Below, in pieces: positions 2,931-42,180 of a stretch of DNA of 48,902 nucleotides (positions are counted from its first letter, which is position 1; every line of letters begins with the position of its first letter). Location: contig CAKMJS010000044.1 in the NCBI GenBank assembly GCA_927405585.1, forward strand, positions 1-48,902. Direction: 5' to 3'. The notes under the pieces are model-generated. The model ran no database searches. It saw nothing but the letters and a program-made list of their open reading frames with translations, and had not been told where the DNA came from. The stretch comes from an uncultured Desulfosporosinus sp. (GTDB lineage Bacteria; Bacillota; Desulfitobacteriia; Desulfitobacteriales; Desulfitobacteriaceae). Position numbers and translations under genes: made by a program.

Positions 2931-2964
2931 AACGCACCTTCTAAGGGCTTGCGTTTTAGCTCTT
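2922..2964. terminator. Bidirectional terminator between convergent CDF and GNAT genes
   Basis: A perfect 15-bp stem (AAGAGCTAAAACGCA with TGCGTTTTAGCTCTT) overlaps the stop codon of the transporter. On the minus strand the hairpin is followed by a T run, so it is a better terminator for the GNAT/glycosylase operon than for the plus-strand gene. Confidence 0.8.
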
Positions 2965-3028
2965 CGTTCTAGCTCTCGTTTAAGCTCTTAGTTTAAGCTC
3001 TTAGTTTAAGCTCATTGTTTTAGTTCTT
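2952..3028. repeat. Six degenerate 13-bp tandem repeats
   Basis: Units of the form GTTTAAGCTCTTA are repeated head to tail about six times, one of them 12 bp long. The first unit lies in the right arm of the terminator hairpin and the last overlaps the final codons and stop of the GNAT gene. The middle copies are nearly identical and the outer copies are diverged. Confidence 0.75.
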
Positions 3029-3529
3029 GTTGACCTTAACTAATAATTTATCGTAACAATAAAAAGGAGTTTCTTTTCCTAAGAACTTCATTTCTGCAAT
3101 AAATTTGTACCCCGATTTTAGAAATAAGGCCTTCATCTTCTCATTGATCGAATTTGTGTCTGTCTTTAGATACTCAATATTTCTTTTCAGAGCTAAGTCC
3201 TCAGCAAAGGTCATAAGCTCCCTTCCCACACCCTTTCGTCGGTGCTTCGGATGGACAGCCATTCTGTGGATGACCATTACGTCTTTGCTTGACGACCAAT
3301 CAAGCCCACAATATTCAACTGGCTCACTCTTGTTAACACAGACAAAACCAACCAGCTTTCCATCATGTTCGGAAACATAGAGCTCCCCTTCGTTAATATC
3401 CGCCAGGAAATCCTTTTCCAGAGGATAACTATCATCCCATTGATAATTGTGGTAAGCATGCATCTCCGTTACTGTCAAGGTAATGATGGTCATGATGTCC
3501 TTGATATCCCTTAATACGGCTTTTCTCAT
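3020..3529 (-). CDS. GNAT family N-acetyltransferase
   Basis: A 169-residue single-domain GNAT protein. The acetyl-CoA binding motif A appears as VMVIHRMAVHPKHRRKGVGRELMTFAEDLA (the key R-x-x-G-x-G/A pattern is RRKGVG), followed by LKTDTNSINEKMKALFLKSGYKF, the usual motif B region. The substrate is unknown. The preferred start is the ATG at 3529, which overlaps the TGA of the upstream glycosylase gene as ATGA, implying translational coupling; a TTG at 3541 is the longer alternative. The stop codon lies within a tandem repeat. Confidence 0.85.
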   Translation of the reverse strand: MRKAVLRDIKDIMTIITLTVTEMHAYHNYQWDDSYPLEKDFLADINEGELYVSEHDGKLVGFVCVNKSEPVEYCGLDWSSSKDVMVIHRMAVHPKHRRKGVGRELMTFAEDLALKRNIEYLKTDTNSINEKMKALFLKSGYKFIAEMKFLGKETPFYCYDKLLVKVNKN

Positions 3530-4122
3530 GAGGATGCCCAAAGATACAACGAGGCTACTGAGCCATAAGGGGAATACCTTTTTCTATAGCGCTCAAACTT
3601 TTCCTTGGGAAGCTCTTTAAGCCCATATATATTCATCATACCTCGACAGATTGCCAGATCCTTAAAGCTCAGCACATCCGGACGGTTAAGAGAAAATATA
3701 AGCAGCATTTCGGCTGTCCAAACACCCACTCCATGCAGCGAAGACAGCTTTTTAATAATTTCCTCATCTGACAAGGTATGGAGCGTCTTGAAATCTACGC
3801 TTCCAGATAAGGCTGCCTCTGCTATCCCCTTAATGTAACTAGCCTTTCTCTCTGACATGCCACATGCTTTAATGTCTGACAAGTCCACCTGAGCAATACT
3901 TTTTGGGGTCATCTCGATGAGCAGAACACACAATCTATTCCATACTGTTTCAGCAGCCTTTTTTGAGATTTGTTGGCTAACCACACTAGAGACCAAGGCT
4001 GTGAACGGATCAGGAGTAATCTCACGCTGGATTATGCCGATTCTATCAATAGCTGCACCCAGCTTTTTATCTTTGAGTTTTAAATAGTCCATTTCCACTT
4101 GTCCATAGTCAAAAATTGGCAT
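3526..4122 (-). CDS. HhH-GPD DNA-3-methyladenine glycosylase (AlkA-like)
   Basis: The 198-residue protein has the helix-hairpin-helix element LSSLHGVGVWTAEMLLIF, about residues 127-144, and the catalytic aspartate in DVLSFKDLAICRGM. It corresponds to the catalytic core of AlkA without the N-terminal beta domain. It should excise alkylated purines such as 3-methyladenine in base excision repair. GAGGAG lies 10 bases before the ATG. It forms a two-gene operon with the GNAT gene through a 4-bp ATGA overlap. Confidence 0.88.
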   Translation of the reverse strand: MPIFDYGQVEMDYLKLKDKKLGAAIDRIGIIQREITPDPFTALVSSVVSQQISKKAAETVWNRLCVLLIEMTPKSIAQVDLSDIKACGMSERKASYIKGIAEAALSGSVDFKTLHTLSDEEIIKKLSSLHGVGVWTAEMLLIFSLNRPDVLSFKDLAICRGMMNIYGLKELPKEKFERYRKRYSPYGSVASLYLWASS

Positions 4123-25395: not shown

Positions 25396-27126
25396 TTATA
25401 AGACCGTTTTAATTAATTTAAAATGTTCCACATCGACCAATCCTAAATCCGTTAGCTTTAATACCGGAATCACTGGTAAAGAAAGAAAAGCCAAAGACAT
25501 AAATGGATCGACCGTATCACTAATGCCAAGACAATGTGCCTTCATATGTAACTCGCCGAGAGTTTTAGCGACGGCTTCAGCCTCTTGATCCGTCATGAGA
25601 CCTGCAATCGGTAAAGGGAGCTTGCCGATCACCTGATCCCCATCCACGACGCAAAGTCCACCACCCATCTCTACACAGATCTGAATAGCTAGATTCATTT
25701 CTTCATCGCTCATTCCCACAACAACTAAGTTGTGTGAATCATGGGCAATTGTTGAAGCGATGGCCCCTTTTTTCAAGCCTAATCCCTCGACGAACCCGAC
25801 ACCGACGTTCCCAGTCTCATGATGGCGTTCGAGCACCGCTAGTTTGGCAATTCCTTGGGTGAGGTCTGTTCGAACGAGTCCATCCATTACCGGCAGTTCA
25901 CGTATCAAGGCGGACGTGACTAGCGAATGCCCCTGAACTCCAATAACCCTTACCAGTGCGACACGAGTCGATTCAGATTCCTCATTGGCAAAGACTCTTA
26001 GTTTAGTCGGGGACCATTTCCCGAGATGTACGCTCTCTGTAAGTCCCTTGTTACCACTTCGCTGAAAGTGTGGACGCTCTCCTCTTTTGCTTTGTCTTAC
26101 CCCTCTCCAATAGACTTCCTCGATATCAAATCGATTGAGGTCTTTCAAAATAACAAAATCAGCTTGATACCCTGGAGCCACTGCACCCAGTTGGGGGAGC
26201 CCGATTGCCCGTGCCGCATTTATCGTCGCCATTTGAATCACCTGAATGGGATCCATACCTGCCCCAATCGCTAAACGCACAAGGTGATCCACACTTCCTT
26301 CTTGGAGCAGGTCAATAGTATGACGATCATCCGTCACCAGGAGGAATTGTCCCGAATTCCCAAAAGTGACCGCTGGCAGAAGATCCAAGAGATTTTTAGC
26401 AGCGCTTCCTTCGCGGAGCATCACATGAAAGCCCCGTCGCAAGCGGTCTCTGACCTCTTCTAGTGTAGTACACTCATGTTCAGTATGAATTCCCGCAAGA
26501 TAATAAGCATTAAGATCCTGCGGAGATATTCCAGGCGCATGACCATCAAGGAAGCACACAGGGAGTTCTAATTTTTCCACCATATCTGGCTTTGCTTGTA
26601 TTACTGCTTGGAAATCCATAACCTCCCCTAATCCGATCACCTTGGGGTGAGCTATAAATTCATATAAATCTTTCGCTCCCAGGTGAGCCCCGGAGGTCTC
26701 TAAATCCGTTGCTGGAACACAGGAAGGGAGGGCTACAAACGTATTAAAAGGTAAATTCTCAACACTATCAAGAATATAACGAATCCCTTTACTACCGAGG
26801 ACATTGGCGAGTTCATGGGGATCTACAACAGCCGTTGTAACTCCATGAGATAGGAGGAGAGAACAAAATTCTTCTGGACAAAGGTGAGAGCTTTCAATAT
26901 GTACATGACCGTCAATAAGCCCAGGAACAACATAGTTTCCACCCAAATCTAGTTCCTTCTCCACATGCTCGAACGTCCCAATCCCGACAAAGTATCCCTG
27001 ATGAATCCCTATATCCGTCTCATGGATTTCTCCCGAGAACACATTAACCAACCTGGCGTTCCTCAGAACAAGGTCGATTTTAACAAGCCCCCTGGCCTCA
27101 TCCATCCTCTGCTTAAAACTAGACAT
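25396..27126 (-). CDS. ade: Adenine deaminase
   Basis: A 576-residue amidohydrolase-superfamily protein matching adenine deaminase in length and order. Metal ligands are in VPGLIDGHVHIESSHLCPEEF, VVDPHELANVLG, FLDGHAPG and HTEHECT, and ATINAARAIGLPQLGAVAPGYQADFVIL marks the end of the barrel. The C-terminal domain includes VVVGMSDEEMNLAI. It converts adenine to hypoxanthine and ammonia, feeding the xanthine dehydrogenases encoded upstream. The ATG at 27126 with GGAG 8 bases before it is chosen; a frame extending to 27231 runs into repeat-like DNA and lacks a ribosome binding site. Confidence 0.95.
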   Translation of the reverse strand: MSSFKQRMDEARGLVKIDLVLRNARLVNVFSGEIHETDIGIHQGYFVGIGTFEHVEKELDLGGNYVVPGLIDGHVHIESSHLCPEEFCSLLLSHGVTTAVVDPHELANVLGSKGIRYILDSVENLPFNTFVALPSCVPATDLETSGAHLGAKDLYEFIAHPKVIGLGEVMDFQAVIQAKPDMVEKLELPVCFLDGHAPGISPQDLNAYYLAGIHTEHECTTLEEVRDRLRRGFHVMLREGSAAKNLLDLLPAVTFGNSGQFLLVTDDRHTIDLLQEGSVDHLVRLAIGAGMDPIQVIQMATINAARAIGLPQLGAVAPGYQADFVILKDLNRFDIEEVYWRGVRQSKRGERPHFQRSGNKGLTESVHLGKWSPTKLRVFANEESESTRVALVRVIGVQGHSLVTSALIRELPVMDGLVRTDLTQGIAKLAVLERHHETGNVGVGFVEGLGLKKGAIASTIAHDSHNLVVVGMSDEEMNLAIQICVEMGGGLCVVDGDQVIGKLPLPIAGLMTDQEAEAVAKTLGELHMKAHCLGISDTVDPFMSLAFLSLPVIPVLKLTDLGLVDVEHFKLIKTVL

Positions 27127-27581
27127 ACTACACACTCCTCTCCGATGGATGCAAGAAGGGACGGTTCTTTCCCACACATTCCCCCAATGCAAAATAAGGG
27201 AGTGTTCTCCGAATTGCATACCCGAATGCATGCTCTATTTCCACCCGAAAGCTTCCTCAAATACAAAACGATGCACATAAAATGTGCCGTCTCCCCAAAG
27301 CACAAAACTCGCAGACCTAACTATCATCCCAGAGCACCACTAAAAGTCTCTCCGTTCTCAACCCCGGGACGCAGTGTGACACGAGCGCGAGGTCTTTACG
27401 AAAGCAGATTAGCAAACTCCGTGAAAGCGACCCCAAACCGGGACAGTGCCCAAGGACGGGCACTGCCGCCACTGCGCCACGGACGGCGCATTTGGCGGGC
27501 ATCCCGTACCCAGAGGAAAAAGCTTGAACGGCTAGTTTGCTCTGTGACGTATGCACCTCGCGCTGTGTCACACTGCGTCCC
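27127..27581. repeat. Repeat-rich intergenic region between the dadD-like gene and ade
   Basis: No gene is seen. The half nearest ade holds a GGGACGGTTCTTTCCCACAC segment (27158-27177), which resembles the GGGACGGTTCTTTTTGT-type repeats common in clostridial genomes. The other half is the large inverted repeat at 27364-27580. Several reading frames pass through but have skewed composition and no ribosome binding sites. Confidence 0.6.
27364..27580. repeat. Long GC-rich imperfect inverted repeat with internal hairpins
   Basis: The ends, GGGACGCAGTGTGACAC and GTGTCACACTGCGTCCC, are exact complements and the pairing continues through GCGCGAGGT/ACCTCGCGC with one bulge, then more loosely. The centre has two further hairpins: CAGTGCCC-AAGGAC-GGGCACTG and TGCGCC-ACGGAC-GGCGCA. 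The outer edge touches the stop codon of the dadD-like gene at 27582. It is clearly richer in GC than its neighbours. It may be a MITE-like or REP-like element or a structured RNA. Confidence 0.75.
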
Positions 27582-28913
27582 CTACAACAGACCTACTCGA
27601 CCCATGACCCGATTCAGACTCTTCGTCGAACTCACCTTAAGCCTTGGAACATCAATCGTCAGAAGCTGCCGATCTTTCATCACTATTTGTCCGTCTACCA
27701 TCGTAAGACGAACATCGGAGGCAGTCGCTTGATAAACCAGCTGTGAATAAACATCGACATGTTCTTTCGGCCAAGTGTGTAAACCCTGCAGACTAACGAC
27801 TGCCAAATCTGCTTTCTTTCCAACTTCTAAACTTCCCAGATCATGTTCATGCCCAATAGCACGAGCACCACCAAGTGTAGCGAGCTCAAACACGCTTTTT
27901 GCAGGCATAGCAGTAGGTCCATGTAAGGGCTTTTGAATCAACGCCGCGTGTCGCATTTCCCTGAACGCGTCCAAGTTATTATTGCAGGGTGCCCCATCTG
28001 CACCGATGGAAACCTCTGCTCCACGTCTCATCATTTCCGGAATGGGCGCAATCCCCGAGGCAAGTTTGAGGTTTGAGGTTGGACAATGTGAAATTCGCGT
28101 CTTAGTCTGGATCAAGATATCTTTTTCAGCATCATCCAGCCAAATGCAGTGAGCGAGGATGAGTTTCGGGCCCGTCAAGCCAACCTTATCTAAGTAGGTG
28201 ATATTGCGCATCCCGCGCGTGTTCTCCACAATCTGAATTTCTCCAAGATTTTCTGAAGCGTGTGTATGAACAAAGGCATTTTTCTCTCGAGCAATTCGTG
28301 AAACTTCTCTTAATAGCGTGTCGGTGCAGGAGACAACGAAACGAGGCGTGAAAGCAACTTCGAGACGTCCATTCCCTTTACCGTGATATTTTTCATATAA
28401 GTCAACGCTTTCTTGGACGGACGCGTCTGTCGACTCCCGTAAAAAAGCTGGAATATCCTTGTTGCAATCATCCATCATCACCTTGCCAGATAAGGCTCTC
28501 AAACCACTCTCCAGAATCGCTTCAAAAGCGTGTTCTGTGTGATGTACGGTTTCCATATCCACAATCGTCGTTGTTCCTCCAAGGAACAATTCCCCAATCC
28601 CAAGCAATGCGGAATCATAGAGGGAGTCTGGATCATGCCCGCCTTCTAGCGGCCAAACTTTTAATTTCAGCCAATCCAATAATTCCAAATCATCCGCCTG
28701 TCCTCGAAACAAGGTCTGGCAGAGATGGATATGGGTTTGAATTAAGCCGGGAATCAGTAAATCACCGTTGAGCTCGATCACTTGATCGGCAGGTTGGTCA
28801 ATGACTCCCCCGAGCGCTACAATTTGTGATCCATCGACGAGCAGATCACCCTGTATAACCTCACGCTCTGGATTCATGGTTACGATCGTTGCATTTTTAA
28901 AGAGACTACGCAT
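27582..28913 (-). CDS. 5'-deoxyadenosine/SAH/MTA deaminase-like amidohydrolase (dadD/ATZ-TRZ family)
   Basis: A 443-residue protein of the ATZ/TRZ amidohydrolase family. Metal ligands: LIPGLIQTHIHLCQTLFRG (HxH near residue 60), FVHTHASENLGE, ILAHCIWL and SIGADGAPCNN with the catalytic Asp. The sequence matches the group annotated as 5'-deoxyadenosine or MTA/SAH deaminase (once called N-ethylammeline chlorohydrolase). Placed between ade and a purine permease, it could act as a guanine or other aminopurine deaminase, filling the place of SsnA/GuaD; this is inference. GGGGGAC precedes the ATG with 5-base spacing. The stop codon abuts a long inverted repeat. Confidence 0.85.
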   Translation of the reverse strand: MRSLFKNATIVTMNPEREVIQGDLLVDGSQIVALGGVIDQPADQVIELNGDLLIPGLIQTHIHLCQTLFRGQADDLELLDWLKLKVWPLEGGHDPDSLYDSALLGIGELFLGGTTTIVDMETVHHTEHAFEAILESGLRALSGKVMMDDCNKDIPAFLRESTDASVQESVDLYEKYHGKGNGRLEVAFTPRFVVSCTDTLLREVSRIAREKNAFVHTHASENLGEIQIVENTRGMRNITYLDKVGLTGPKLILAHCIWLDDAEKDILIQTKTRISHCPTSNLKLASGIAPIPEMMRRGAEVSIGADGAPCNNNLDAFREMRHAALIQKPLHGPTAMPAKSVFELATLGGARAIGHEHDLGSLEVGKKADLAVVSLQGLHTWPKEHVDVYSQLVYQATASDVRLTMVDGQIVMKDRQLLTIDVPRLKVSSTKSLNRVMGRVGLL

Positions 28914-29093: not shown

Positions 29094-30479
29094 CTAATGG
29101 CTACCAAGTATAAAGTGTAAGATAAAGAGAATCGTGAAGACATACATGACTAGATTGTTCTCCTTATGCCGTCCTGAGATCAATTTAATGATCGTATAAG
29201 ACATGAAACCAAACGCGATACCTTGAGCAATGGAGAACGTTAAAGGCATCATCACGATAGTCATAAAAGCAGGTAAAGCTTCTGTAAAGTCATCAAACTT
29301 GATTTTAACTACGTCACTCATCATCATGACACCCACCAGTATAAGAACGGGTGCAGTTGCTTCTCCGGGAATCAACATGATTAGTGGTGCAAAAATAAGT
29401 GAAACCACGAAGAGACCCGCAACTACGACTGCAGTCAATCCAGTTCTTCCACCCTCGGTCACCCCGGAGGCACTTTCAATGTAAGAAGTGACAGTAGGCG
29501 TTCCCACGGCTGCTCCAAACATTGTCCCAACAGAGTCTGCCATTAAGGCTTTTCCAGCACGAGGTAAATGACCGTTTTTGTCCATAAGGCCTGCTTTACG
29601 CGATACTCCGATTAGTGTTCCAATATTATCAAATAAATCCACGAGCGTGAATGCAAATAATATTGAAATTAAGCCATAGCTTAAAGCTCCTAAAATATCT
29701 AGTTCAAATGCCACCGGGGCAATGACTTCGAACGGATTGGTAACTGCTACAAAACTAGACAAACCAGTTGGTAATGGAGAATAGCCCATAAGCATACTGA
29801 AAAGCGTTGTAGCTACAATCCCGAACAGTAAGCCCCCTTTGATCTTTCTAGATATAAAAAATCCAGTTACGATCAAACCAAAAAGGGTCACAATTGCACT
29901 TGCTGACTTCATGTCGCCCAGTTTTACAAAGGTGACGGCGTCACCAATAACAATCCCACCATTTTTCAATCCAATAAAGGCAATAAATAAACCAATACCT
30001 ACTCCAATGGAGAGACGAAGTACCTCAGGAACACCATCGATAATCCATTCCCGAACTTTCGTGACGGTCATCAGGAAAAAGACAACGCCTGAGATGAAAA
30101 CCGCACCAAGTGCCGTTTGCCAAGGAAGTCCCATGCCAAGAACGACGGTGTACGTAAAGAACGCATTAAGCCCCATACCAGGTGCCAAGGCAATCGGATA
30201 GTTCGCGTACAAACCCATAATCAGTGTGCCGAACGCTGCAGCAATCGCCGTTGCAGCAAACGTTGCATTAACTGGCATCCCGGCGTCCGCTAAAATGTTA
30301 GGGTTTACAAACAAGATATAAGCCATGGTCACAAACGTAGTGAGTCCAGCTACGATTTCCGTACGCACGTTGGTACCCATTTCTGTCAGGTGAAAGAAGC
30401 GGTCCAATAAGCCACTAGGTTTACCCTCTGGAAGCTTTGTATCTTTAACTTCTTTAGTTTTTCTTGTATCGTTTGACAT
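29094..30479 (-). CDS. NCS2 family purine permease (PbuG/AzgA-like)
   Basis: A 461-residue polytopic protein with about 12-14 membrane segments. Family hallmarks include VAGLTTFVTMAYILFVNPNI near the start, GMGLNAFFTYTVVLGMGLPW, DLFDNIGTLIGVSRKAGL and GTPTVTSYIESASGVTEGGR. This branch of NCS2 imports hypoxanthine, guanine or adenine with protons. It lies directly after the xdhB-xdhC-xdhA genes (98-bp gap) and before the two deaminase genes, which fits uptake of the pathway substrates. The ATG at 30479 has GGGAGGG 6 bases upstream; an ATG at 30494 lies inside that site and is rejected. Confidence 0.92.
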   Translation of the reverse strand: MSNDTRKTKEVKDTKLPEGKPSGLLDRFFHLTEMGTNVRTEIVAGLTTFVTMAYILFVNPNILADAGMPVNATFAATAIAAAFGTLIMGLYANYPIALAPGMGLNAFFTYTVVLGMGLPWQTALGAVFISGVVFFLMTVTKVREWIIDGVPEVLRLSIGVGIGLFIAFIGLKNGGIVIGDAVTFVKLGDMKSASAIVTLFGLIVTGFFISRKIKGGLLFGIVATTLFSMLMGYSPLPTGLSSFVAVTNPFEVIAPVAFELDILGALSYGLISILFAFTLVDLFDNIGTLIGVSRKAGLMDKNGHLPRAGKALMADSVGTMFGAAVGTPTVTSYIESASGVTEGGRTGLTAVVVAGLFVVSLIFAPLIMLIPGEATAPVLILVGVMMMSDVVKIKFDDFTEALPAFMTIVMMPLTFSIAQGIAFGFMSYTIIKLISGRHKENNLVMYVFTILFILHFILGSH

Positions 30480-30577
30480 GAATAGCCCTCCCATTAAATA
30501 ATTATATTAATTATTTTCTGTTTATTACCCTGCCCTACTATTCGTCCTAAAACGCCAACGTAGCACTTTAACCTAAG

Positions 30578-33396: not shown

Positions 33397-34238
33397 CACA
33401 CCATTGACCCTCCTTCTGGAATGAAAGAAGCCACAGCCTCCCGGAAAACCCCAGCAACCGCCACTCGTTTATAGGGTGCTGACGCACGGTCTCCTAGAGC
33501 AATGCGCACAACCCTTTGAACTTCTTCGACCCCTTTTTCGATCCAAGCCTCATTTAATTCCTGACCGCTTAAGGCCAGACCAAGGGTTTCACTCAAGAAA
33601 GCACGTCTGCCCACCGCGCCTAAAGCAACGCTAACCTTTCCTACCTGCTTACCCTTTACTTCTATAGCTACAGCAACACTTAGGCGAGCAATCGCTAACG
33701 CTTGTCGTCGCCCAAGTTTGGCAAATCCACTTTGTAAACCCTTCCGTGGGATACGAAAGCCCCGTATCAGCGTATCTTGAGGCACGAGAGGAGTACTAAT
33801 AAGTAAGCTGGCTAGCGGAATAATCTCCTCGCCCTCTCTCGTAATCAGGTGTACTTCTGCCCCCAACGCTAGTAACGGTGGTAAGCCGTCGGCCGCGGGA
33901 GAGCAATTTCCTAAATTACCGCCCAAGGTTGCCTTGTTTCTGATTTGAGGGGAGCCCATCGTTTGACAAGCTTGCCATAAGGCAAAAGCATTTTGCGAAA
34001 CGAGATTACTTTGTCCGATTTCTGCAAAGGTTGCCATACTTCCGATCTCTAAATAGTCTTCGGCTTCTATGATTTCGCGAAGTTTTGCAATCTTACCCAG
34101 ATCGATAAGGGCCTTGGGCTGGACTTTACCCGTCTGCATGTGCAACACAAGATCCGTTCCTCCTGCCAAGAAAGAAGACTCAGTTGTCCGGGCTAACTCT
34201 ACTGCTTCACTCACGCTCCGTGGTTGAAAATACTTCAT
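33396..34238 (-). CDS. xdhB: Xanthine dehydrogenase FAD-binding subunit
   Basis: A 280-residue protein of the CO dehydrogenase flavoprotein family. FAD contacts appear in FLAGGTDLVLHMQ near residue 25 and in MGSPQIRNKATLGGNLGNCSPAAD near residue 100; the CO dehydrogenase flavoprotein C-terminal domain fills about 170-275. The ATG at 34238 follows AGGGGTGA; a frame running to 34277 is rejected because it enters the leader and lacks a site. It is the first gene of the xdhB-xdhC-xdhA unit and sits behind a purine riboswitch. Confidence 0.94.
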   Translation of the reverse strand: MKYFQPRSVSEAVELARTTESSFLAGGTDLVLHMQTGKVQPKALIDLGKIAKLREIIEAEDYLEIGSMATFAEIGQSNLVSQNAFALWQACQTMGSPQIRNKATLGGNLGNCSPAADGLPPLLALGAEVHLITREGEEIIPLASLLISTPLVPQDTLIRGFRIPRKGLQSGFAKLGRRQALAIARLSVAVAIEVKGKQVGKVSVALGAVGRRAFLSETLGLALSGQELNEAWIEKGVEEVQRVVRIALGDRASAPYKRVAVAGVFREAVASFIPEGGSMV

Positions 34239-34267
34239 TATTTCACCCCTTTTATATATAAGCACAC

Positions 34268-34316
34268 AAAAAAACAACCCTATCGCAAAACCCTATAAAC
34301 CATCCCTGGCTCATAG
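34268..34316 (-). promoter_or_regulatory. Candidate expression platform of the purine riboswitch
   Basis: On the minus strand CTATGAGCC can pair with GGTTTATAG (9 bp, two G-U pairs, loop AGGGAT; 34293-34316). The left arm of this stem reuses the 3' strand of aptamer helix P1, so the two structures exclude each other. GGTTTTG follows at once and a run of seven T residues lies 18 bases further on (34268-34274). If the stem is a terminator, ligand binding would raise expression. The sign is inferred. Confidence 0.4.
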
Positions 34317-34374
34317 AGAAGCAATTACGGTTGCCTCGTAGAAACCCTTGATCCTATTATCAAGGTTATATGAG
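34310..34374 (-). promoter_or_regulatory. Purine riboswitch aptamer upstream of xdhB-xdhC-xdhA
   Basis: Read on the minus strand: P1 CTCATA/TATGAG; P2 CCTTGAT/ATCAAGG closing a loop with AATAGG; the J2/3 core GTTTCTAC; P3 GAGGCAA/TTGCTTC closing loop CCGTAA. The GG in loop 2 and CC in loop 3 can form the kissing contact. The specificity base equivalent to position 74 is C (at 34316), the guanine/hypoxanthine-type letter, not the adenine-type U. The base equivalent to 73 is U instead of the usual A. It sits about 70 bp before the xdhB start. Confidence 0.88.
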
Positions 34375-34575
34375 TAACTAATCATTATTCAAATTTTCTA
34401 AAAATCAATCTGACATTGTATATATTCGCGATCTATTTGTATTCTCCTACCTGAAAACACAAAATATTTAATTTCCAATTTTTCCTAATCTATGAGTTCA
34501 CGTTCTATCCGTGATTCTCTAGGCTAACCTAGTCAGCTGAGCTGTGCTCTGTTGTAATCTACATTTCAATTATAT

Positions 34576-35427
34576 TTATTCTTTGGCACACAGAGAGTTA
34601 ACTATCCCACCTTCTAGAATACCGAGCAATACTGCGCCTCCAAGTGCCCTAGCTTTCTCAGTAATCGTCCAGCAGTATTCCTCTTGTCCGCGAGGATCAA
34701 TATCCCCAATTTTAACCTGCACGGCGACTGGAGTCTCTGATCGCAATAGTCCTCTTAGAACACCATTGCAGGACGCAAAGACTTCTTCAGGTCGAATCCC
34801 GTCATCTATCTCACCCAAACAATCCCCCACTGAAACATGTTCACCAATAGCCCGCTTGGCTCTAAAAATTCCCGTCTTGGAAGAATAAATAACACGTTCT
34901 CTTGAGATACCCGCTACTTCTCCCGGAACGCCTGTATTCGGCTGGGCCGCTCCGTCATAGATCAGGCGCGCTAGATGATGCCCACGATTTGTTTCCACGA
35001 CGACATCGACATCCACCCCTGCCGTGAAACCTGGCCCCAAACCAAAGGTCCGAAGAGCCATACTCCGCTTTGTCCCTAAGTTACGTTTGGCCATGATAGC
35101 ATCTACCAAGACTAACGGGTTCAGTACTGACAGACCCTCCAGCTCAGGATCGACTAAGACGGGTATTTCCCCCGCACGCCACGCTGCATCGCATTCTATC
35201 GGATTCTCAACACCTCTTGCCCTAATCCCTTCAACTTCCCATCGCCCTTCCGATATGGCTGTCCCAAAGCAGACAGGCCAACGAACCATCAGGGGCTCAG
35301 CCACTTCCGTCATCACCACTCGAAAACCTGCTTTTGCTAGCACCCAGCCCACTCCGGTGGCTTGTTCTCCAGCTCCGCGAACTAAAACCACCGGCCCCTT
35401 CATGACGAGTTTGTTTGTCATTCGCAC
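34576..35427 (-). CDS. yqeB: YqeB, selenium-dependent molybdenum hydroxylase maturation protein
   Basis: The 283-residue protein opens with VVLVRGAGEQATGVGWVLAKAGFRVVMTE, a nucleotide-binding-like fold, and contains LRTFGLGPGFTAGVDVDVVVETNRGHHLAR and RAKRAIGEHVSVGDCLGEI, which match the EF2563/YqeB family. Family members are found only with selenium-dependent molybdenum hydroxylases and are believed to help install the labile selenium of the cofactor. Start is GTG 35427 or ATG 35421 after GGGGGGAG. It follows mocA by 13 bp and is the last gene before the riboswitch. Confidence 0.9.
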   Translation of the reverse strand: MRMTNKLVMKGPVVLVRGAGEQATGVGWVLAKAGFRVVMTEVAEPLMVRWPVCFGTAISEGRWEVEGIRARGVENPIECDAAWRAGEIPVLVDPELEGLSVLNPLVLVDAIMAKRNLGTKRSMALRTFGLGPGFTAGVDVDVVVETNRGHHLARLIYDGAAQPNTGVPGEVAGISRERVIYSSKTGIFRAKRAIGEHVSVGDCLGEIDDGIRPEEVFASCNGVLRGLLRSETPVAVQVKIGDIDPRGQEEYCWTITEKARALGGAVLLGILEGGIVNSLCAKE

Positions 35428-35440
35428 GATTCTCCCCCCA

Positions 35441-36094
35441 TCACACTGGTGCCTTACCTATTTGACCCAGTAACGCCTTGTATTCCTCCGGAGTGTCCAC
35501 ATCTAGAAAAAACATATCCTCCACCGGATACTTACACCATCGTTCTGGATACCGGTATAAAACTTCTCTACCACCCTGTTCCCCTTGTAGTGCCAAAAGT
35601 TCTGGAAGGTATCGCTTATGAAAAAAAACTGGTGATCCGGCTTTATCCCCAGACATCGGTACCAGAAAGTCTGGAGAAACCTGTTGCACGTGATCTAGAC
35701 AGTCGGCAAGTCCTTGAGCCGTAATTCCAACCTGATCCCCGGGCAGAAATCCGATCGACTGAACCTTACTGCTCAAATCTTGTAAACCATAACGAATCGT
35801 CTCCGCTAGCGGTTTGGAACTGGGAACTTGAAACCAAACCCCACCATACCTATTAAACATCTTGATACGATCTTCCTTGAGATAGGCTTCGATAGGATGT
35901 CTGGCCACAACGTAAATTTCTGCGAGCAATAAGCTTAAGTCTTTACTTGATGAATGACGCCCTTGAAGTGTGATAGCCTCCAGGACAATCTGAAGAACAT
36001 TACCGAGCACTGTCGTATCCTTCCAGGGTAGCACGAGCTTATCTTGTCCCATCCGGGTCGCTTTACCAGCAGCCATTACCACAAATCGAACCAC
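35441..36094 (-). CDS. mocA: MocA-like molybdenum cofactor nucleotidyltransferase
   Basis: The 217-residue protein has the MobA/MocA nucleotidyltransferase start VVMAAGKATRMGQDKLVLPW, an intermediate FLPGDQVGITAQGL (in the place of the GDqP motif), KAGSPVFFHKRYL and the terminal FFLDVDTPEEYKALL. Relatives convert Mo-molybdopterin to the cytosine dinucleotide form used by xanthine dehydrogenases; YgfJ in E. coli is the equivalent. The GTG at 36094 has AAGGAGGGG at 8-base spacing and overlaps yqeC by 19 bp. A frame reaching 36187 is rejected as it overlaps yqeC widely. Confidence 0.85.
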   Translation of the reverse strand: MVRFVVMAAGKATRMGQDKLVLPWKDTTVLGNVLQIVLEAITLQGRHSSSKDLSLLLAEIYVVARHPIEAYLKEDRIKMFNRYGGVWFQVPSSKPLAETIRYGLQDLSSKVQSIGFLPGDQVGITAQGLADCLDHVQQVSPDFLVPMSGDKAGSPVFFHKRYLPELLALQGEQGGREVLYRYPERWCKYPVEDMFFLDVDTPEEYKALLGQIGKAPV

Positions 36095-36951
36095 TGTAGT
36101 TTCCCCTCCTTGGCATCCCCCGCTGCTATTCGCAAATGGTTTGGCCGATAGTCCAAGCTTTTGACCTCCTGTTGAATTTCGGTCCACCTCTGCTTTAACT
36201 CAAGCAAAGGCTCGAAGCGCTCCAGCAAATCCTCGTTCTTTGCCTCTTCTCCATGACAATTCAGGAGAATAACCCAGGACATTTGATCATATCGGGGAGA
36301 AAAAACAGGAGATCTCAAGAAATAGTGCCATGCACTCTCAGCATCCCAAACCCGACCAAGCAGTTCCAGACAACTAGTCGATCTATGTACTTGTTCGACC
36401 TGTAAGACACTCCCCCACAAACCACCATCTAGCACTAATACGACACAATCCGATTTTAGAGGAATTTGTGGCTCATGAGGTTCCCAGCATTTTAACTTAA
36501 GCCTCTTAGCCCCATCCCCTTCTATCACCCAATACAATCCGGCATGCAAGTCAGGCACCACTCTCTGACTCATGGGTAGGGGCAACTCATGAATTGCCCC
36601 TACCTCCGGAATGGCCCCCCCACTTGCGATAGCATCATCCACCGTTTGAACTGAAGGGCCCAGCCATTTCCCGCTTTCAGCTTCAATATTAGTATACCAA
36701 AAGCAAGCATCTTGTTCACTCAGCGGTGGAGTGCGACTTTTCCAACTCATCATTGATTGCTCGGGAAAGACTTTCGTCGTGGTTGTTGCGATCACCCGAT
36801 GCCCAGCGGCGTCAATTTCTCGAGTAAGCGATCGAAGACAGGTTGTCTTCCCTCCTGCTCCGATGAACGTGACAACTCTCACATATTCTGTCAAGTTCCA
36901 CAAACTACCACTTGCCCAACTGTTTGGTAACCCGGTCTCTGAACTTGCCAA
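36076..36951 (-). CDS. yqeC: YqeC, selenium cofactor biosynthesis protein, with repeat inserted in frame
   Basis: The 291-residue protein has the P-loop VVTFIGAGGKTTCLRSL near residue 32, then VIATTTTKVF, and VIEGDGAKRLKLKCWEPHEPQIP, the characteristic YqeC core. It is a presumed NTP-dependent factor in making the selenium-containing molybdenum cofactor. The TTG at 36951 has TAGGAG at 7-8 base spacing; a TTG at 36978 lies within repeat DNA and is rejected. Residues about 116-126 (EVGAIHELPLP) are encoded by a 30-bp palindromic repeat at 36575-36604 that also occurs three times just upstream of the gene, so the repeat has inserted into the coding region without breaking the frame. Confidence 0.88.
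   Translation of the reverse strand: MASSETGLPNSWASGSLWNLTEYVRVVTFIGAGGKTTCLRSLTREIDAAGHRVIATTTTKVFPEQSMMSWKSRTPPLSEQDACFWYTNIEAESGKWLGPSVQTVDDAIASGGAIPEVGAIHELPLPMSQRVVPDLHAGLYWVIEGDGAKRLKLKCWEPHEPQIPLKSDCVVLVLDGGLWGSVLQVEQVHRSTSCLELLGRVWDAESAWHYFLRSPVFSPRYDQMSWVILLNCHGEEAKNEDLLERFEPLLELKQRWTEIQQEVKSLDYRPNHLRIAAGDAKEGKLQWFDLW
36575..36604. repeat. Palindromic repeat inside yqeC
   Basis: GGTAGGGGCAA and TTGCCCCTACC are the outer arms of a 30-bp near-perfect palindrome (centre CTCATGAA). It belongs to the same family as the copies at 36969-37082 and is read through by the yqeC frame. Confidence 0.85.
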
Positions 36952-36968
36952 TGTTTTTCTCCTACCGT

Positions 36969-37082
36969 GGGAGGGCAATTCGTGAATTGCCCCTACCTCT
37001 TAATTTTTCTCCCGTACGAACAATTCACGAATTGCCCTACCTCTTATTATTCTCCCGTAGGGGCAATTCACGAATTGCCCAC
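36969..37082. repeat. Three tandem palindromic repeats upstream of yqeC
   Basis: Three copies of a GGGCAATTCACGAATTGCCC palindrome, spaced about 42 bp, with conserved spacers of the type CTACCTCTTATTATTCTCCCG. The middle copy has a damaged left arm (GAACAATTC). The array ends just before the TAGGAG ribosome binding site of yqeC and separates it from the stop of the selenium-dependent dehydrogenase gene. Confidence 0.85.
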
Positions 37083-37157
37083 CTCCAAGAATCCCATCTC
37101 AAGGACAATGACCCATAGGAATGCACTCCATCTACTTCTACTTCTACCCTCTTACTT

Positions 37158-39710
37158 TTACTTCTTATAGGGGGTTTCACGTAGGGGGAGAGAACACCTA
37201 TGCTTGCCGTCAAACTTGTAGTAAGCTGAGGCCACCGCAGGTGCTGTGGGAATCGAAGCAATCTCGCCTACTCCTTTAGCTCCGTAGGCTAATGCTGAGT
37301 TATTCTTTTCAATAATGATGCTCTCGATCTCGGGCACTTCCGTCGAACGGAAAAGACCCAGCGTTCCAAACTTGGCGGTTGGCACACCTTTCTCAAGTGG
37401 GAAATCCTCACGCAAGGCATACCCTAATCCCATGGTAACCCCGCCCTCGATTTGCCCTTCAATTGCCTTCGGGTTGATCGCTCTACCCACGTCATGAGCT
37501 GCCACAACCTTTTCAACTTTTCCCTGTTCATTGAGTAAGACCACATGAGTAGCATAACCGTAAGCTACGTGACTGATTGGGTTAAGCTTATCCGAATTCA
37601 TGGGATCGGTTTTTCCGCTGTACTCACCGGAAAATTCGTTCCCTTCCAAGGTCTCCAAAGCGGAATTATGCAAGGCATGTTGCAATTTTAGTGAGGCCTG
37701 ACGGACTGCCTCACCGGTAAACATTGTCTGGCGAGAAGCGGTTGTCGTGCCAGAATTAGGCGTCATCGAGGTATCCGGAGCCTCTACTTCGATTAGGTTA
37801 ATCGGCAACCCAGTGGCCTCATGAACAATCTGAGTGGCAATGGTGGCAAAGCCTTGCCCAATACAAGCAGCACTGGTGAGTACCACGACTTTTCCTTTGA
37901 GAACTTTAAGTATCACCCGACCAGTATCAGGAAGACCGACCCCAATTCCGGTGTTTTTCATACAACAGGCAATCCCTGCAGCATGTGGATGGGATTCATA
38001 TACATCACGAACCGCGAGCAGAGTTTCCTTAATCGCCGTCCCCTCATCAACAATCTGACCTGTAGAATTAATCATTCCCGGTTCCAGCGCATTGAGGTAC
38101 CGAATCTCCCAGGGTGAAATCCCTACCTTTTCCGCTAAGAGATCCAAGTTAGTTTCCGCAGCAAAAGCAGACTGCGGTACACCAAAGCCCCGAAACGCTC
38201 CAGCCGGAGGATTATTCGTATAGACACAGAGCCCGGTAATATCGACATTCGAAACCTGATAAGGGCCACTCGCATGGGTGCAAGCCCTCTGCAAAACTGC
38301 CGTGCCAAGAGAGGCATAGGCTCCCGTATCAGCTACGATATTAGCCACCATAGCCGTCAATTTCCCCTTCTCATCGCACCCGGTCGTGATATCTAATTCC
38401 ATGGCATGCCGCTTCGGGTGAACTAAGAGACTTTCCTTACGAGATAATGTGAGTTTCACTGGTTTTTGGGTCTTAATGGCAAGCAATGCCGCATGGTGTT
38501 GGACGCTTAAATCCTCTTTACCACCAAACCCGCCACCAACTAACTTACTGATCACACGCACTTTTTCCGCGGGTAGCCCGAGCATTGCCATGATCCCATG
38601 TTGATCATCATAAACGCTTTGATCCGCGACATAGACCGTGATTCCGCCGTCTGCCTGAGGTATCGCTAAGGCACTTTCCGGTTCCATGAAGGCATGTTCC
38701 GTTGGAGGCGTCGAATAATGATGGGTGACGACATGAGCCGACTTAGAAAGGGCTTCCTGGGCATTCCCTCGATTAATTTTCGTCGTGCTTAATAAATTAC
38801 CCTTGGGATGAATTTTATAAGCTTGCTCAGCAAGCGCTTGGGTCGGGCTAAGTATCGGTTCTAACTCTTCATAGTCAACTTTAATCAAGTCTAAAGCTTC
38901 GCGCGCCTGCCGCTTAGTTTGGGCTGCCACTAAAACAAGGGCATCCCCGATATAACGTGTCTCTTGCCCTACAGAAACTAGCGTTGGCCAATCATGAAAA
39001 ATATGACCGTGATTATGCTCCCCAGGAATGTCCTCCGCTGTCAAGACGGTTTCTACGCCAGGATAGACCTGTGCCGCCGAGATATCGATAGCTTTCACAA
39101 GCGCTCGAGGATATTGCGTCCTCAACACCGCAGCGTGGAGCATCTGATCCACGTGCATATCATCGACATAATGTCCCGTCCCCAGGACTTTCTCACGAGC
39201 ATCCACACGATGGATACTTGTCCCAATCCCAGCCCCCGATTGAGCGTTCGCTTGAAGTTCTCCACGTAACACTTGAGCCGCTAACATAATTCCCTTTTCG
39301 ATCTTCACATAGCCCGTACACCGACAAATATTGCCGCGAATGCTCTGTTTAACCTCTTGGGGAGTGGGGTTCGGCGACTTATCGAGCAAGGCTTTGGCAC
39401 TAATCACCATACCAGGTATACAGAAACCACATTGAACGGCTCCAGCTTGGGCAAATGCCCATACATAAGCTTCTCGCTCGCGTTCCGATAACCCTTCTAC
39501 GGTCACAAGCTTTTTCCCCGCGGCCTTGGCGACGGTCAATAAACAAGCCCTCATCGCCTTGCCGTCCATGAGTACCATGCACGCGCCACAAGACCCTTCA
39601 CCACACCCATTTTTCAGGGACGTAATCTGAGCCTCGTCACGCAAAAAATCTAATAGTTTCATATTCTCTTGTACAGTGTAGACTGTATCGTTGATGTCAA
39701 TGTTAAACAT
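37158..39710 (-). CDS. Selenium-dependent xanthine dehydrogenase (fused Fe-S and molybdenum subunits)
   Basis: An 850-residue fusion. Residues 1-160 form the iron-sulfur part (CGEGSCGACMVLMDGKAMRAC, CGFCIPGM, CRCTGY). The rest is the molybdenum part, with VGGGFGGKEDLSVQ, AGAFRGFGVPQSAF, CIGQGFATIATQIV and AYGAKGVGEIASIPTAPA, the last holding the catalytic Glu. There is no FAD domain. The architecture matches the selenium-dependent xanthine dehydrogenase family, in which a labile selenium replaces the cofactor sulfur, rather than selenocysteine. YqeB, YqeC and MocA genes follow directly, as expected. The ATG at 39710 overlaps the hydA stop by 8 bp; a TTG at 39719 is the alternative. Confidence 0.92.
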   Translation of the reverse strand: MFNIDINDTVYTVQENMKLLDFLRDEAQITSLKNGCGEGSCGACMVLMDGKAMRACLLTVAKAAGKKLVTVEGLSEREREAYVWAFAQAGAVQCGFCIPGMVISAKALLDKSPNPTPQEVKQSIRGNICRCTGYVKIEKGIMLAAQVLRGELQANAQSGAGIGTSIHRVDAREKVLGTGHYVDDMHVDQMLHAAVLRTQYPRALVKAIDISAAQVYPGVETVLTAEDIPGEHNHGHIFHDWPTLVSVGQETRYIGDALVLVAAQTKRQAREALDLIKVDYEELEPILSPTQALAEQAYKIHPKGNLLSTTKINRGNAQEALSKSAHVVTHHYSTPPTEHAFMEPESALAIPQADGGITVYVADQSVYDDQHGIMAMLGLPAEKVRVISKLVGGGFGGKEDLSVQHHAALLAIKTQKPVKLTLSRKESLLVHPKRHAMELDITTGCDEKGKLTAMVANIVADTGAYASLGTAVLQRACTHASGPYQVSNVDITGLCVYTNNPPAGAFRGFGVPQSAFAAETNLDLLAEKVGISPWEIRYLNALEPGMINSTGQIVDEGTAIKETLLAVRDVYESHPHAAGIACCMKNTGIGVGLPDTGRVILKVLKGKVVVLTSAACIGQGFATIATQIVHEATGLPINLIEVEAPDTSMTPNSGTTTASRQTMFTGEAVRQASLKLQHALHNSALETLEGNEFSGEYSGKTDPMNSDKLNPISHVAYGYATHVVLLNEQGKVEKVVAAHDVGRAINPKAIEGQIEGGVTMGLGYALREDFPLEKGVPTAKFGTLGLFRSTEVPEIESIIIEKNNSALAYGAKGVGEIASIPTAPAVASAYYKFDGKHRCSLPLRETPYKK

Positions 39711-41106
39711 TTCCCCCAACCTTTCTCTTAAGAAATGGCTTCCGAGATAAATATATCCCTGTGGGTCTTGTCCCTTGAAGCTGACTGTCCTTCACCACGT
39801 GTTGACCACGGAGAAAGACGTGTTTGGCTTGGCCCTTCTGTGTGAAACCTTCGTACGGAGTATAATCAACCTGCTGATGCAGCGCTTCCACCGTTATAGT
39901 CGAGGAAGTCCGGGGATCCCAGACCACGAGGTCCGCATCACTTCCAGGAGCGATCGTTCCTTTGCGAGGGAACAATCCGAATAATTTTGCCGCATTCGTC
40001 GAAGTCAGGGCCACGAATTCGTTCAGCGTTAATTTGCCGGTCATCACTCCATAGGTGTAAAGCAATCCCATTCGCGTTTCCACCCCAGGAGCCCCACTTG
40101 GAATTTTACTAAAATCGCTTAATCCTAGTTCCTTTTGCCCTTTATAATTGAAGGAGCAATGGTCCGTGGCGACAACTTCTAAGTTCCCTGTGTGTAAACC
40201 CGACCACAACTCCTCTTGGTGATGAGCCGGTCGCAAGGGCGGTGAGATGACATACTTAGCGCCTTGAAAACCTTCTGAACGATAATAGCTTTCATCGAGC
40301 AAGAGATATTGCGGACAGGTTTCGGCATAAACCTCTAATCCCTTTAATTTAGCTTCTACCACGGCTTTGAGTGCTCCACTACAGGTAAGATGAACTATAT
40401 AGAGAGGGGCCTCGGCAAGCTGGGCCAGCGTTATAACGCGGTTGGTTGCCTCTGCTTCCACTTCAGGTGGCCTAGTCAGCGGGTGAAAATATGGAGCAGT
40501 CTGCCCTTGAGCCCGCGCTTCCTTCACCAAGTAATCGACGACATCCCCGTTTTCACAATGTACACAAACCAGTGCTCCGCACTCTCCTGCCTGACGCAAA
40601 GCCTGCAATAATGCGCCATCATCTACTTGCAGGATATTTTTATAAGCCATATACAGTTTAAAGGAAGATACGCCTGCCTGGTCCACTAACTCGGTCATTT
40701 CCTGGGCAATTTGGGCGTTCCAATCAGTGATTGCCATGTGAAAACCAAAGTCTACATAACATTTGCCGTCGGCTTTGGTGTGCCAATTTTCTAAGCCCGT
40801 TTTCAGAGTTTCCCCTTTAAACTGAGTGGCATAATCCAGGATGGTTGTTGTTCCACCCAGCACCGCTGCCTTCGAGCCCGATAAGAAATCATCCGAGGTA
40901 GAAAACGTTCCCATCGGGAGATCAAAGTGGGTATGCGGATCAATCCCTCCAGGGAATAGCAAGCAGCCGTCCACATTTATCACCTGATCCTCAGGTTGCT
41001 TAATCTCATGACCCATGGCCACAATTTTCTCGCCTTCAATGCGGACGTCTGCTTGATACGTATCTGCAGCCGTAACAACAGTTGCACCGTTTAACACTAT
41101 ACCCAT
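39703..41106 (-). CDS. hydA: Dihydropyrimidinase / D-hydantoinase
   Basis: A 467-residue cyclic amidohydrolase. Zinc ligands are in FPGGIDPHTHFDLPMG, the carboxylated lysine is in SSFKLYMAYKN, and further ligands are in VCVHCENGDVVDYL, YIVHLTCSGAL and VVATDHCSFN. Length and motif order equal dihydropyrimidinase. In the purine cluster of gut bacteria and E. coli this position is held by HyuA, thought to open a cyclic ureide intermediate. It overlaps the following xanthine dehydrogenase gene by 8 bp. GGGG lies 9 bases before the ATG. Confidence 0.93.
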   Translation of the reverse strand: MGIVLNGATVVTAADTYQADVRIEGEKIVAMGHEIKQPEDQVINVDGCLLFPGGIDPHTHFDLPMGTFSTSDDFLSGSKAAVLGGTTTILDYATQFKGETLKTGLENWHTKADGKCYVDFGFHMAITDWNAQIAQEMTELVDQAGVSSFKLYMAYKNILQVDDGALLQALRQAGECGALVCVHCENGDVVDYLVKEARAQGQTAPYFHPLTRPPEVEAEATNRVITLAQLAEAPLYIVHLTCSGALKAVVEAKLKGLEVYAETCPQYLLLDESYYRSEGFQGAKYVISPPLRPAHHQEELWSGLHTGNLEVVATDHCSFNYKGQKELGLSDFSKIPSGAPGVETRMGLLYTYGVMTGKLTLNEFVALTSTNAAKLFGLFPRKGTIAPGSDADLVVWDPRTSSTITVEALHQQVDYTPYEGFTQKGQAKHVFLRGQHVVKDSQLQGTRPTGIYLSRKPFLKRKVGGNV

Positions 41107-41244: not shown

Positions 41245-42180
41245 TTATCTCTTAATTACTGTACCAGTCTTGCCGTTAATTCCGTCCTTTGCTTTTTCAA
41301 GCAGCGTAATGAGAGCTGTTCGATTGTCTCCTGAAGCTGCAAATTCAACTGCTGCCTGAACCTTAGGCAACATAGATCCAGGTGCAAAATGCCCTTGGTT
41401 CATGTATTCATTTGCTTCGTCTGTTGTAATGCTCTCAAGCCATTTTTCGCCAGGTTTTCCGAAATTAATTGCCACTTTTTCTACGGCAGTCAAGATGATC
41501 AGGTAATCAGCATCAACTTCCTGCGCCAAGACACTGCAGGCAAAATCCTTGTCAATGACAGCGCTTACGCCTTTTAAATGGTGTCCTTGTCTGATAACAG
41601 GTATACCTCCACCTCCGCAGGTAATGACGATCTCACCGGAATTCAATAAATTTTTGATTGTTTTAATCTCAATGATTTCTTTAGGAAGCGGGGAGGCTAC
41701 AACCCTACGGTAGCCTCTTCCCGAGTCTTCGATTACTTGAAAGCCTTTTTCCTTCGCAAACTTAAGCTCTTCTTCGTTCATGAAATGGCCAATCGGTTTT
41801 GTAGGATTTAGAAACTTAGGATCATCCTCATCCACCCGAACCTGAGTGATTACTGTGGTAATAGACTTTTCTATGCCACGGTCCAACAGTTCTTCCCTCA
41901 AAGCATTCTGCAAATCATATCCTATATAGGCCTGGCTCATTGCGACACAGACTGACAGGGGAGTGAAGGTTGGATGCATTGGATTTGAACGCCCATATAC
42001 ATCCATAGCCTCATGAATCATTCCAACCTGTGGCCCGTTCCCGTGGGAAATCACTACGTCGTATCCTTCTTCGATCAAATCAGCAATAGCTTTGGAAGTA
42101 TTTTTGACTGCGATCATCTGCTCAGGCAGATTGTTACCAAGTGCATTTCCGCCTAAGGCAATAACAACTCTTTTTTTCAT
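41245..42180 (-). CDS. arcC: Carbamate kinase
   Basis: A 311-residue protein that fits carbamate kinase throughout: VVIALGGNALGN, VVISHGNGPQVGMIHEAM, ITCGGGGIPVIRQG, VIDKDFACSVLAQEV and GSMLPKVQAAVEFA. The reaction carbamoyl phosphate + ADP to ATP + carbamate (then ammonia and CO2) is the energy-conserving end of the pathway. It follows ygeW by 41 bp, the same pairing as ygeW with yqeA in E. coli. There is no arginine deiminase gene in the window, so the carbamoyl phosphate must come from YgeW. Confidence 0.95.
   Translation of the reverse strand: MKKRVVIALGGNALGNNLPEQMIAVKNTSKAIADLIEEGYDVVISHGNGPQVGMIHEAMDVYGRSNPMHPTFTPLSVCVAMSQAYIGYDLQNALREELLDRGIEKSITTVITQVRVDEDDPKFLNPTKPIGHFMNEEELKFAKEKGFQVIEDSGRGYRRVVASPLPKEIIEIKTIKNLLNSGEIVITCGGGGIPVIRQGHHLKGVSAVIDKDFACSVLAQEVDADYLIILTAVEKVAINFGKPGEKWLESITTDEANEYMNQGHFAPGSMLPKVQAAVEFAASGDNRTALITLLEKAKDGINGKTGTVIKR

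Follow-up and report, generated by a model that had tools for sequence, protein, structure and literature searches.

The pbuE gene encodes an efflux pump and is preceded by an adenine riboswitch. In this element the terminator overlaps the aptamer, 'extending through the P3 helix', and control is ON (PMC9756952). Two other branches of the purine family come close to the case considered here: xanthine-II riboswitches, which combine U51G with insertions in J2-3 and J3-1, lie before xanthine dehydrogenase among other genes and were given an ON architecture by their authors, while guanine-II riboswitches retain U22, U51 and C74, have one base inserted in J2-3, are predicted to be ON and most commonly precede phosphoribosyltransferase genes (both as described in PMC9295807).

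Here we analyse a purine riboswitch from an uncultured Desulfosporosinus sp., located in a stretch of 48,902 nucleotides (the whole of it being 'the window' hereafter). We propose that it is, with good probability, a transcriptional ON riboswitch, in which a guanine-type (C74) purine aptamer sits on a pbuE-type expression platform and controls purine catabolism. The aptamer, the terminator, their overlap, and the conservation and covariation of both were computed.

The aptamer and the genes downstream

A preliminary description of this DNA had reported a purine aptamer with helices P1, P2 and P3, a GUUUCUAC core and a contact between GG in L2 and CC in L3. All of these parts are present: the Rfam model RF00167 (Purine) matches positions 34294-34393 of the minus strand with 69.2 bits (gathering score 37, E 3.2e-10) over all 102 model positions, and no other Rfam match was found in the window at gathering thresholds. 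The preliminary description gives no strand. In both the Rfam alignment and the MFE fold of the aptamer, P1 is formed by 34374-34369 with 34315-34310; folded alone, the aptamer reaches -20.0 kcal/mol and gives P1, P2 and P3 (Table 1). Base numbers (U22, U51, U73, C74 and so on) are taken here to follow xpt. The same genome contains two further RF00167 matches, one (L001) before purE-like and purB-like genes (read by eye) and the other (L071) before a second, different XDH-family set.

Table 1. Elements of the riboswitch and genes following it (positions in the window)
Feature	Position	Strand	Basis
Purine riboswitch aptamer, flanks included	34294..34393	minus	RF00167 match over whole model
P1, 5' strand	34369..34374	minus	Aptamer MFE fold and Rfam alignment
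P2 and loop L2, with the GG of the loop-loop contact in L2	34346..34365	minus	Aptamer fold and Rfam alignment
J2-3, GUUUCUAC; U51 and A52 kept, without insertion	34338..34345	minus	Rfam alignment
P3 and loop L3 (CC); P3 5' strand GAGGCAACC also pairs with terminator 3' arm	34318..34337	minus	Folds and arm matching
J3-1, U73 C74; the ligand is expected to form a Watson-Crick pair with C74	34316..34317	minus	Rfam alignment
P1, 3' strand, common to aptamer and terminator core hairpin	34310..34315	minus	MFE folds
Intrinsic terminator stem, mutually exclusive with P3, J3-1 and P1	34271..34337	minus	Predicted folds
Terminator outer helix	34337-34329/34279-34271	minus	Predicted fold
Terminator core hairpin	34318-34307/34302-34291	minus	Predicted fold
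U7 tract of terminator	34268..34274	minus	Sequence
Shine-Dalgarno-like AAGGGGTG	34244..34251	minus	Sequence
xdhB-like, FAD-binding subunit, 280 aa	33396..34238	minus	PF00941, PF03450
xdhC-like, 2Fe-2S subunit, 155 aa	32932..33399	minus	PF01799, PF00111
xdhA-like, molybdopterin subunit, 785 aa	30578..32935	minus	PF02738, PF20256, PF01315; below equivalog cut-offs
Xanthine/uracil permease family protein	29094..30494	minus	PF00860
Amidohydrolase; best curated model 5'-deoxyadenosine deaminase	27582..28913	minus	Curated model, 671.6 against cut-off 522
Adenine deaminase	25396..27231	minus	TIGR01178, 593.4 against cut-off 472.5

The order xdhB-xdhC-xdhA given in the preliminary description is borne out by the Pfam domains, which identify FAD, 2Fe-2S and Mo subunits in turn. 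The name 'xanthine dehydrogenase' used there is right at the family level, but XdhA stays below the cut-offs of the curated models for named xanthine dehydrogenases (599.4 against 783.65 for pucD, 551.1 against 780 for XdhA). Beyond the amidohydrolase, genes for the adenine deaminase and a sodium-dependent transporter follow on the strand of the aptamer. The cassette genes downstream of the aptamer would form a single transcript. Elsewhere in the window, the minus strand at 36076-41106 encodes YqeC, a MobA-like protein, a selenium-dependent xanthine dehydrogenase (1422.2 bits against 830.45) and a hydantoinase/dihydropyrimidinase, and a carbamate kinase follows this group at 41245-42180; together they look like an anaerobic purine-breakdown island.

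The predicted terminator and its overlap with the aptamer

Positions 34269-34341 fold into a long interrupted hairpin ending in U7 (MFE -32.1 kcal/mol, z -6.14, 0 of 200 shuffles as good). In the outer helix of this terminator, the P3 5' strand GAGGCAACC, including the CC of L3, pairs with GGUUGUUUU; in its core, the end of P3, J3-1 and the P1 3' strand pair with the downstream strand. The predicted terminator consumes all of P3, L3, J3-1 and the P1 3' strand, so that aptamer and terminator are mutually exclusive. When the whole element is folded (-40.7 kcal/mol, z -5.56), P2 survives and P1 and P3 are replaced. A competing hairpin at 34293-34316 had been noted in the preliminary description: it exists (-10.9 kcal/mol alone) and does use the P1 3' strand, but it is part of the terminator core and covers only about a third of the full stem at 34271-34337.

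In folds of the growing transcript, taken in steps of 3, P1 belongs to the MFE structure with the RNA end at 34309-34300 and is absent from 34297 on, and at 34270 the outer helix of the terminator is fully formed (MFE folding leaves out kinetics and the kissing loop). The leader between the separately folded aptamer and the U tract is almost unstructured, with only -0.7 kcal/mol, and therefore no terminator is predicted that tolerates the bound aptamer. As predicted, the overlap of aptamer and terminator is the layout of an ON switch, as described for pbuE. An automated scan of 34200-34600 on the minus strand showed no sigma-70 promoter; the corresponding terminator scan returned no terminator and missed the one at 34271-34337 because it permits loops of 3-8 and is blind to an interrupted stem.

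The switch would then work as follows. Without ligand, the nascent RNA would refold past about 34300: the P1 3' strand would first pair into the core hairpin, GGUUG-UUUU would next pair with the P3 5' strand GAGGCAACC to give a strong terminator with its U7 tail, and transcription would halt ahead of xdhB. If a purine base filled the junction while the polymerase moved on by a few tens of nucleotides, the loop-loop contact would hold together with P1 and P3, the terminator would be blocked by the ligand-held aptamer, and the purine-catabolic cassette would be transcribed. That a ligand binds, which ligand it is and in which direction control runs in the cell is what we infer.

Conservation with the cassette and the putative ligand

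When an XdhB alignment was run against named genomes, 28 loci came up, 19 with an identity of at least 50%; they include Desulfosporosinus loci (D. fructosivorans, metallidurans, lacus, nitroreducens, hippei and acididurans among them) and others from Paradesulfitobacterium ferrireducens, Acididesulfobacillus acetoxydans, Peptococcaceae bacterium CEB3 and several MAGs. Among 73 genomes of the order, a search retaining matches at E <= 1e-60 identified 24 xdhB orthologues, one per genome, scoring 430-510 bits (the next match has 237.5). An RF00167 aptamer lies just upstream of all 24 (coordinates compared by eye with the RF00167 table), which are far from 24 independent cases since they are related, 17 coming from one genus. 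All 24 retain C74 and, in J2-3, GUNUCUAC; positions 48, 73 and 24 vary. The switch is also found before the permease gene (in L057) and before the amidohydrolase (in L051, where one core base is lost, L052, L060 and L061, and with A73 in L067). As judged from these sequences, the switch tracks the catabolic cassette rather than any single gene. Two more loci (L041 and L042) keep the riboswitch in a stretch from which xdhB, xdhC and most of xdhA are absent; a short xdhA remnant is followed by the permease.

Which purine would this aptamer recognise? C74, U51, U22, a J2-3 of 8 bases and a J3-1 of 2 bases without insertions are as in guanine-I, and from the retained C74, U51 and U22 one would expect a guanine-like ligand: guanine is most likely and our first guess, with xanthine or hypoxanthine possible. 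At position 73, which we do not claim as a ligand contact, the consensus A73 of RF00167 is absent and replaced by U73, accompanied within the genus by a G54-C72 pair. The U had been correctly read in the preliminary description; the altered ligand preference suggested from it fares less well. Seventeen of the 24 xdhB-linked switches have U73 and seven, all outside the genus, have A73. Of 82 genomes of the class, 21 carried a U73 sequence pattern, every one from the genus of the window; in a phylum sample of 398 genomes it was found in 3 (the window's own, G272 and G451) and the A73 pattern in 31; both patterns require exact CATATA and TTTCTAC, and divergent members are missed, including U73 members of the genus itself (L046, L047 and L049). 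The two U73 switches from outside the genus precede a purC-like gene (111.3 bits, below the cut-off of 189.9) and an IMP dehydrogenase gene (guaB), and taken in that order they score OFF and unclear in the fold test described below. We therefore gave up, as a main claim, the idea that U73 marks a new ligand class: since orthologous switches have A73, and since U73 precedes guaB and a purC-like gene, it is by itself a poor indicator of a new ligand.

It is possible, though we rather doubt it, that the same ON switch has a pocket (U73 in the genus, U24 in many) preferring xanthine or hypoxanthine, the likely enzyme substrates, over guanine. Such a preference would suit an XDH-family cassette, U24 (CATATAT) is present in 23 of 33 cassette loci versus 6 of 88 other rows of the fold test, and a guanine-type OFF riboswitch, CD2704 of C. 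difficile, is reported to be xanthine-specific (PMC11477304, a review). Against it stand the guanine-I character of C74, U51, U22 and the junction lengths, the seven orthologous switches without U73 outside the genus, and the U73 switches of guaB and the purC-like gene. A further step, which seems to us unlikely, would be a distinct ON class of C74 aptamers attached to purine-catabolic genes of Desulfosporosinus and its relatives; with a pocket modified by U24 in many members and by U73 in one genus, it would sense xanthine or hypoxanthine and not guanine. For the 8-oxoguanine riboswitch, pocket changes have reportedly been described by Breaker's group.

Covariation and direction of control

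In the 24 xdhB loci, the P3 5' 9-mer matches the terminator 3' arm at 9 of 9 positions in 19 cases, 8 of 9 in four and 7 of 9 in one (L068); the scan takes the maximum over positions. The arm register is shifted by one base for L065 and L068, giving 8/9 and 7/9; for L068 the scan itself picks another 9-mer, rich in T, at 8/9, and 7/9 is the value for the homologous arm. The same scan gave mostly 5-7 for loci outside the cassette, with 8 in L063, L064, L114 and L125. Within the genus the arms are mainly GAGGCAACC with GGUUGYUUU, outside it CGGAUGACC or CGGAUAACC with GGUCAUCCG or GGUUAUCCG, and the P3 5' strand and terminator arm show compensatory changes between genera. The 32 loci yield 13 distinct arm pairs, in which standard pairs make up 94.9% of cells (32-56% in slid registers), and 6 of the 9 pairs are changed on both sides. 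When arms were reshuffled, 1 of 5000 shuffles was as well paired; the count of doubly changed pairs, reached in 214 of 5000, is less telling, since there are two groups of sequences. When the leaders were aligned with MAFFT, the 3' arms of some rows came out shifted by one column, and neither pair counting nor a terminator covariance model was based on that alignment. In each of the 32 rows the P3 5' strand also forms 7 of 7 pairs with the P3 3' strand, so that it is held to two partners.

These two partners bear on the idea of a constitutive or otherwise controlled attenuator, in which the hairpin alone matters and the aptamer no longer senses a ligand. The terminator is indeed predicted to exceed the aptamer in stability by a wide margin (-32.1 against -20.0), and the relative L051 has lost a core base. 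However, the terminator needs no J2-3, yet GUNUCUAC and C74 are kept in 24 of 24, and the 7/7 pairing between P3 strands persists in every row, so that we hold this explanation to be improbable.

Direction of control was compared across purine riboswitches by a fold test, in which the 13 bases before the U tract pair either with the aptamer (ON) or downstream of it (OFF); thresholds were set after a first look at leader folds. The test covered 121 rows, with at least two places entered twice (L002/L071 and L023/L118), comprising most low-scoring RF00167 places and a choice of high-scoring ones. L031, whose core was not found, was excluded; of 43 A73 places in the phylum sample 30 were read as loci, and L194-L200 (7), members of the order already covered, were left out of the test. 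Switches linked to xdhB score ON in 22 of 24 cases, the other two (L033 and L109) having no scorable tract, and so do 8 of 9 other cassette loci; the ninth, L067, has an arm match of 9/9, yet the test prefers another hairpin and scores it OFF. The remaining 88 rows comprise 52 OFF, 16 unclear, 15 without tract and 5 ON (L054, L114, L062, L063 and L108), with L117 and L208 (guaB-like by eye) near the ON threshold. First open frames after riboswitches in the phylum sample are mostly xpt-, guaA-, guaB- and pur-like, along with permeases (by eye; the two U73 ones were model-checked).

Two genomes, G008 and G014, combine an OFF-scoring copy before a purE-like gene (by eye) with an ON-scoring copy before xdhB; in the window's genome the xdhB copy is ON, that of the second XDH set OFF and the purE-like one not scorable. 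The guanine-type aptamer appears to be wired both ways within some genomes of the genus, which would make these a clean natural system for the evolution of riboswitch polarity, the change here being a P3 5' strand made complementary to a terminator arm. The ON switch advanced in the preliminary description is thus supported, as a prediction, by anatomy, conservation in 24 of 24, compensatory change and the contrast with other purine riboswitches.

Several other loci deserve mention. The second XDH-family set has standard A73 guanine-type aptamers upstream in L071 (the window's genome), L069, L070, L115, L121 and L125, an aminotransferase-like gene coming first in L069 and L070 (by eye); as L071 scores OFF and the others OFF, unclear or without tract, the two XDH-type sets may be wired oppositely. 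The ON-scoring L054 and L114 are U74 adenine-type aptamers, each followed by a gene that matches the adenine deaminase of the window at 38-40% (confirmed by model for L054); they would repeat the catabolic ON logic with the other purine. Xanthine-II-like aptamers, with U51G and a longer J3-1 and with no J2-3 insertion seen in the three, lie before a different XDH-type gene at L062:501-603 (+), L063:4001-4103 (-) and L064:4001-4104 (-); the gene of L062 is a bona fide XdhA (1233.8 bits against 780), and L062 and L063 score ON, L064 having no tract. Paenibacillus, Propionispira and an unnamed Clostridium are named as variant carriers in PMC9295807. Finally, at L108:4001-4101 (minus strand, genome G066) a C74 aptamer carries G73, has a terminator that scores ON and precedes the gene, at 2347-4011, for a methyl-accepting chemotaxis protein.

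That our locus is instead an OFF switch, with a ligand-free antiterminator and a ligand that favours termination, would agree with most guanine riboswitches, guanine-I being described as OFF with expression lowered when guanine is plentiful (PMC9295807), and with the 52 of 88 other rows scoring OFF; the nearly unstructured leader beyond the aptamer, with no predicted terminator compatible with the bound state, makes it very unlikely. Control mainly through translation, which would likewise be ON, is hardly to be expected, for although the Shine-Dalgarno site is partly paired in the bound and the unbound prediction alike, with its G run somewhat freer in the former (pairing from about 0.8 to about 0.5), an intrinsic terminator with a U7 tail lies ahead of it.

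How does the ON switch that we favour relate to known systems? It differs from the pbuE (ydhL) adenine riboswitch of Bacillus subtilis in having C74 in place of the U74 of adenine riboswitches, and in preceding catabolic genes instead of an efflux pump gene. What the two share is a three-way junction purine aptamer, a terminator that overlaps it (here in predicted folds) from the P1 3' strand through P3, and ON control, predicted in our case (PMC9756952). With guanine-I (xpt, yxjA) it shares C74, U51, U22, the junction lengths and the RF00167 match, but the predicted direction of control is opposite, the leader (-0.7 kcal/mol) has no predicted terminator that could coexist with the bound aptamer, the genes are catabolic and U73 is present in this genus. 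Like xanthine-II, it lies upstream of xanthine-dehydrogenase-type genes with an ON architecture; unlike xanthine-II, with its U51G and insertions, it has U51, GUUUCUAC as J2-3 and a 2-base J3-1. Guanine-II is set apart by its inserted base, J2-3 having the RF00167 consensus length here. Purine-oxidation genes are common to Xanthine-I (NMT1), which is a distinct motif of Proteobacteria and OFF (PMC7373994). Our search of the open-access literature found no account of a C74 guanine-I riboswitch that acts as an ON switch ahead of such genes. We class the element as a variant of a known riboswitch, because it has the sequence features of the guanine-I aptamer except A73, lacks those of xanthine-II, guanine-II and adenine riboswitches, and has a pbuE-type platform. 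It would extend to ordinary-looking guanine aptamers the ON control of xanthine-dehydrogenase-type genes known for xanthine-II, and it warns that an RF00167 match need not mean repression.
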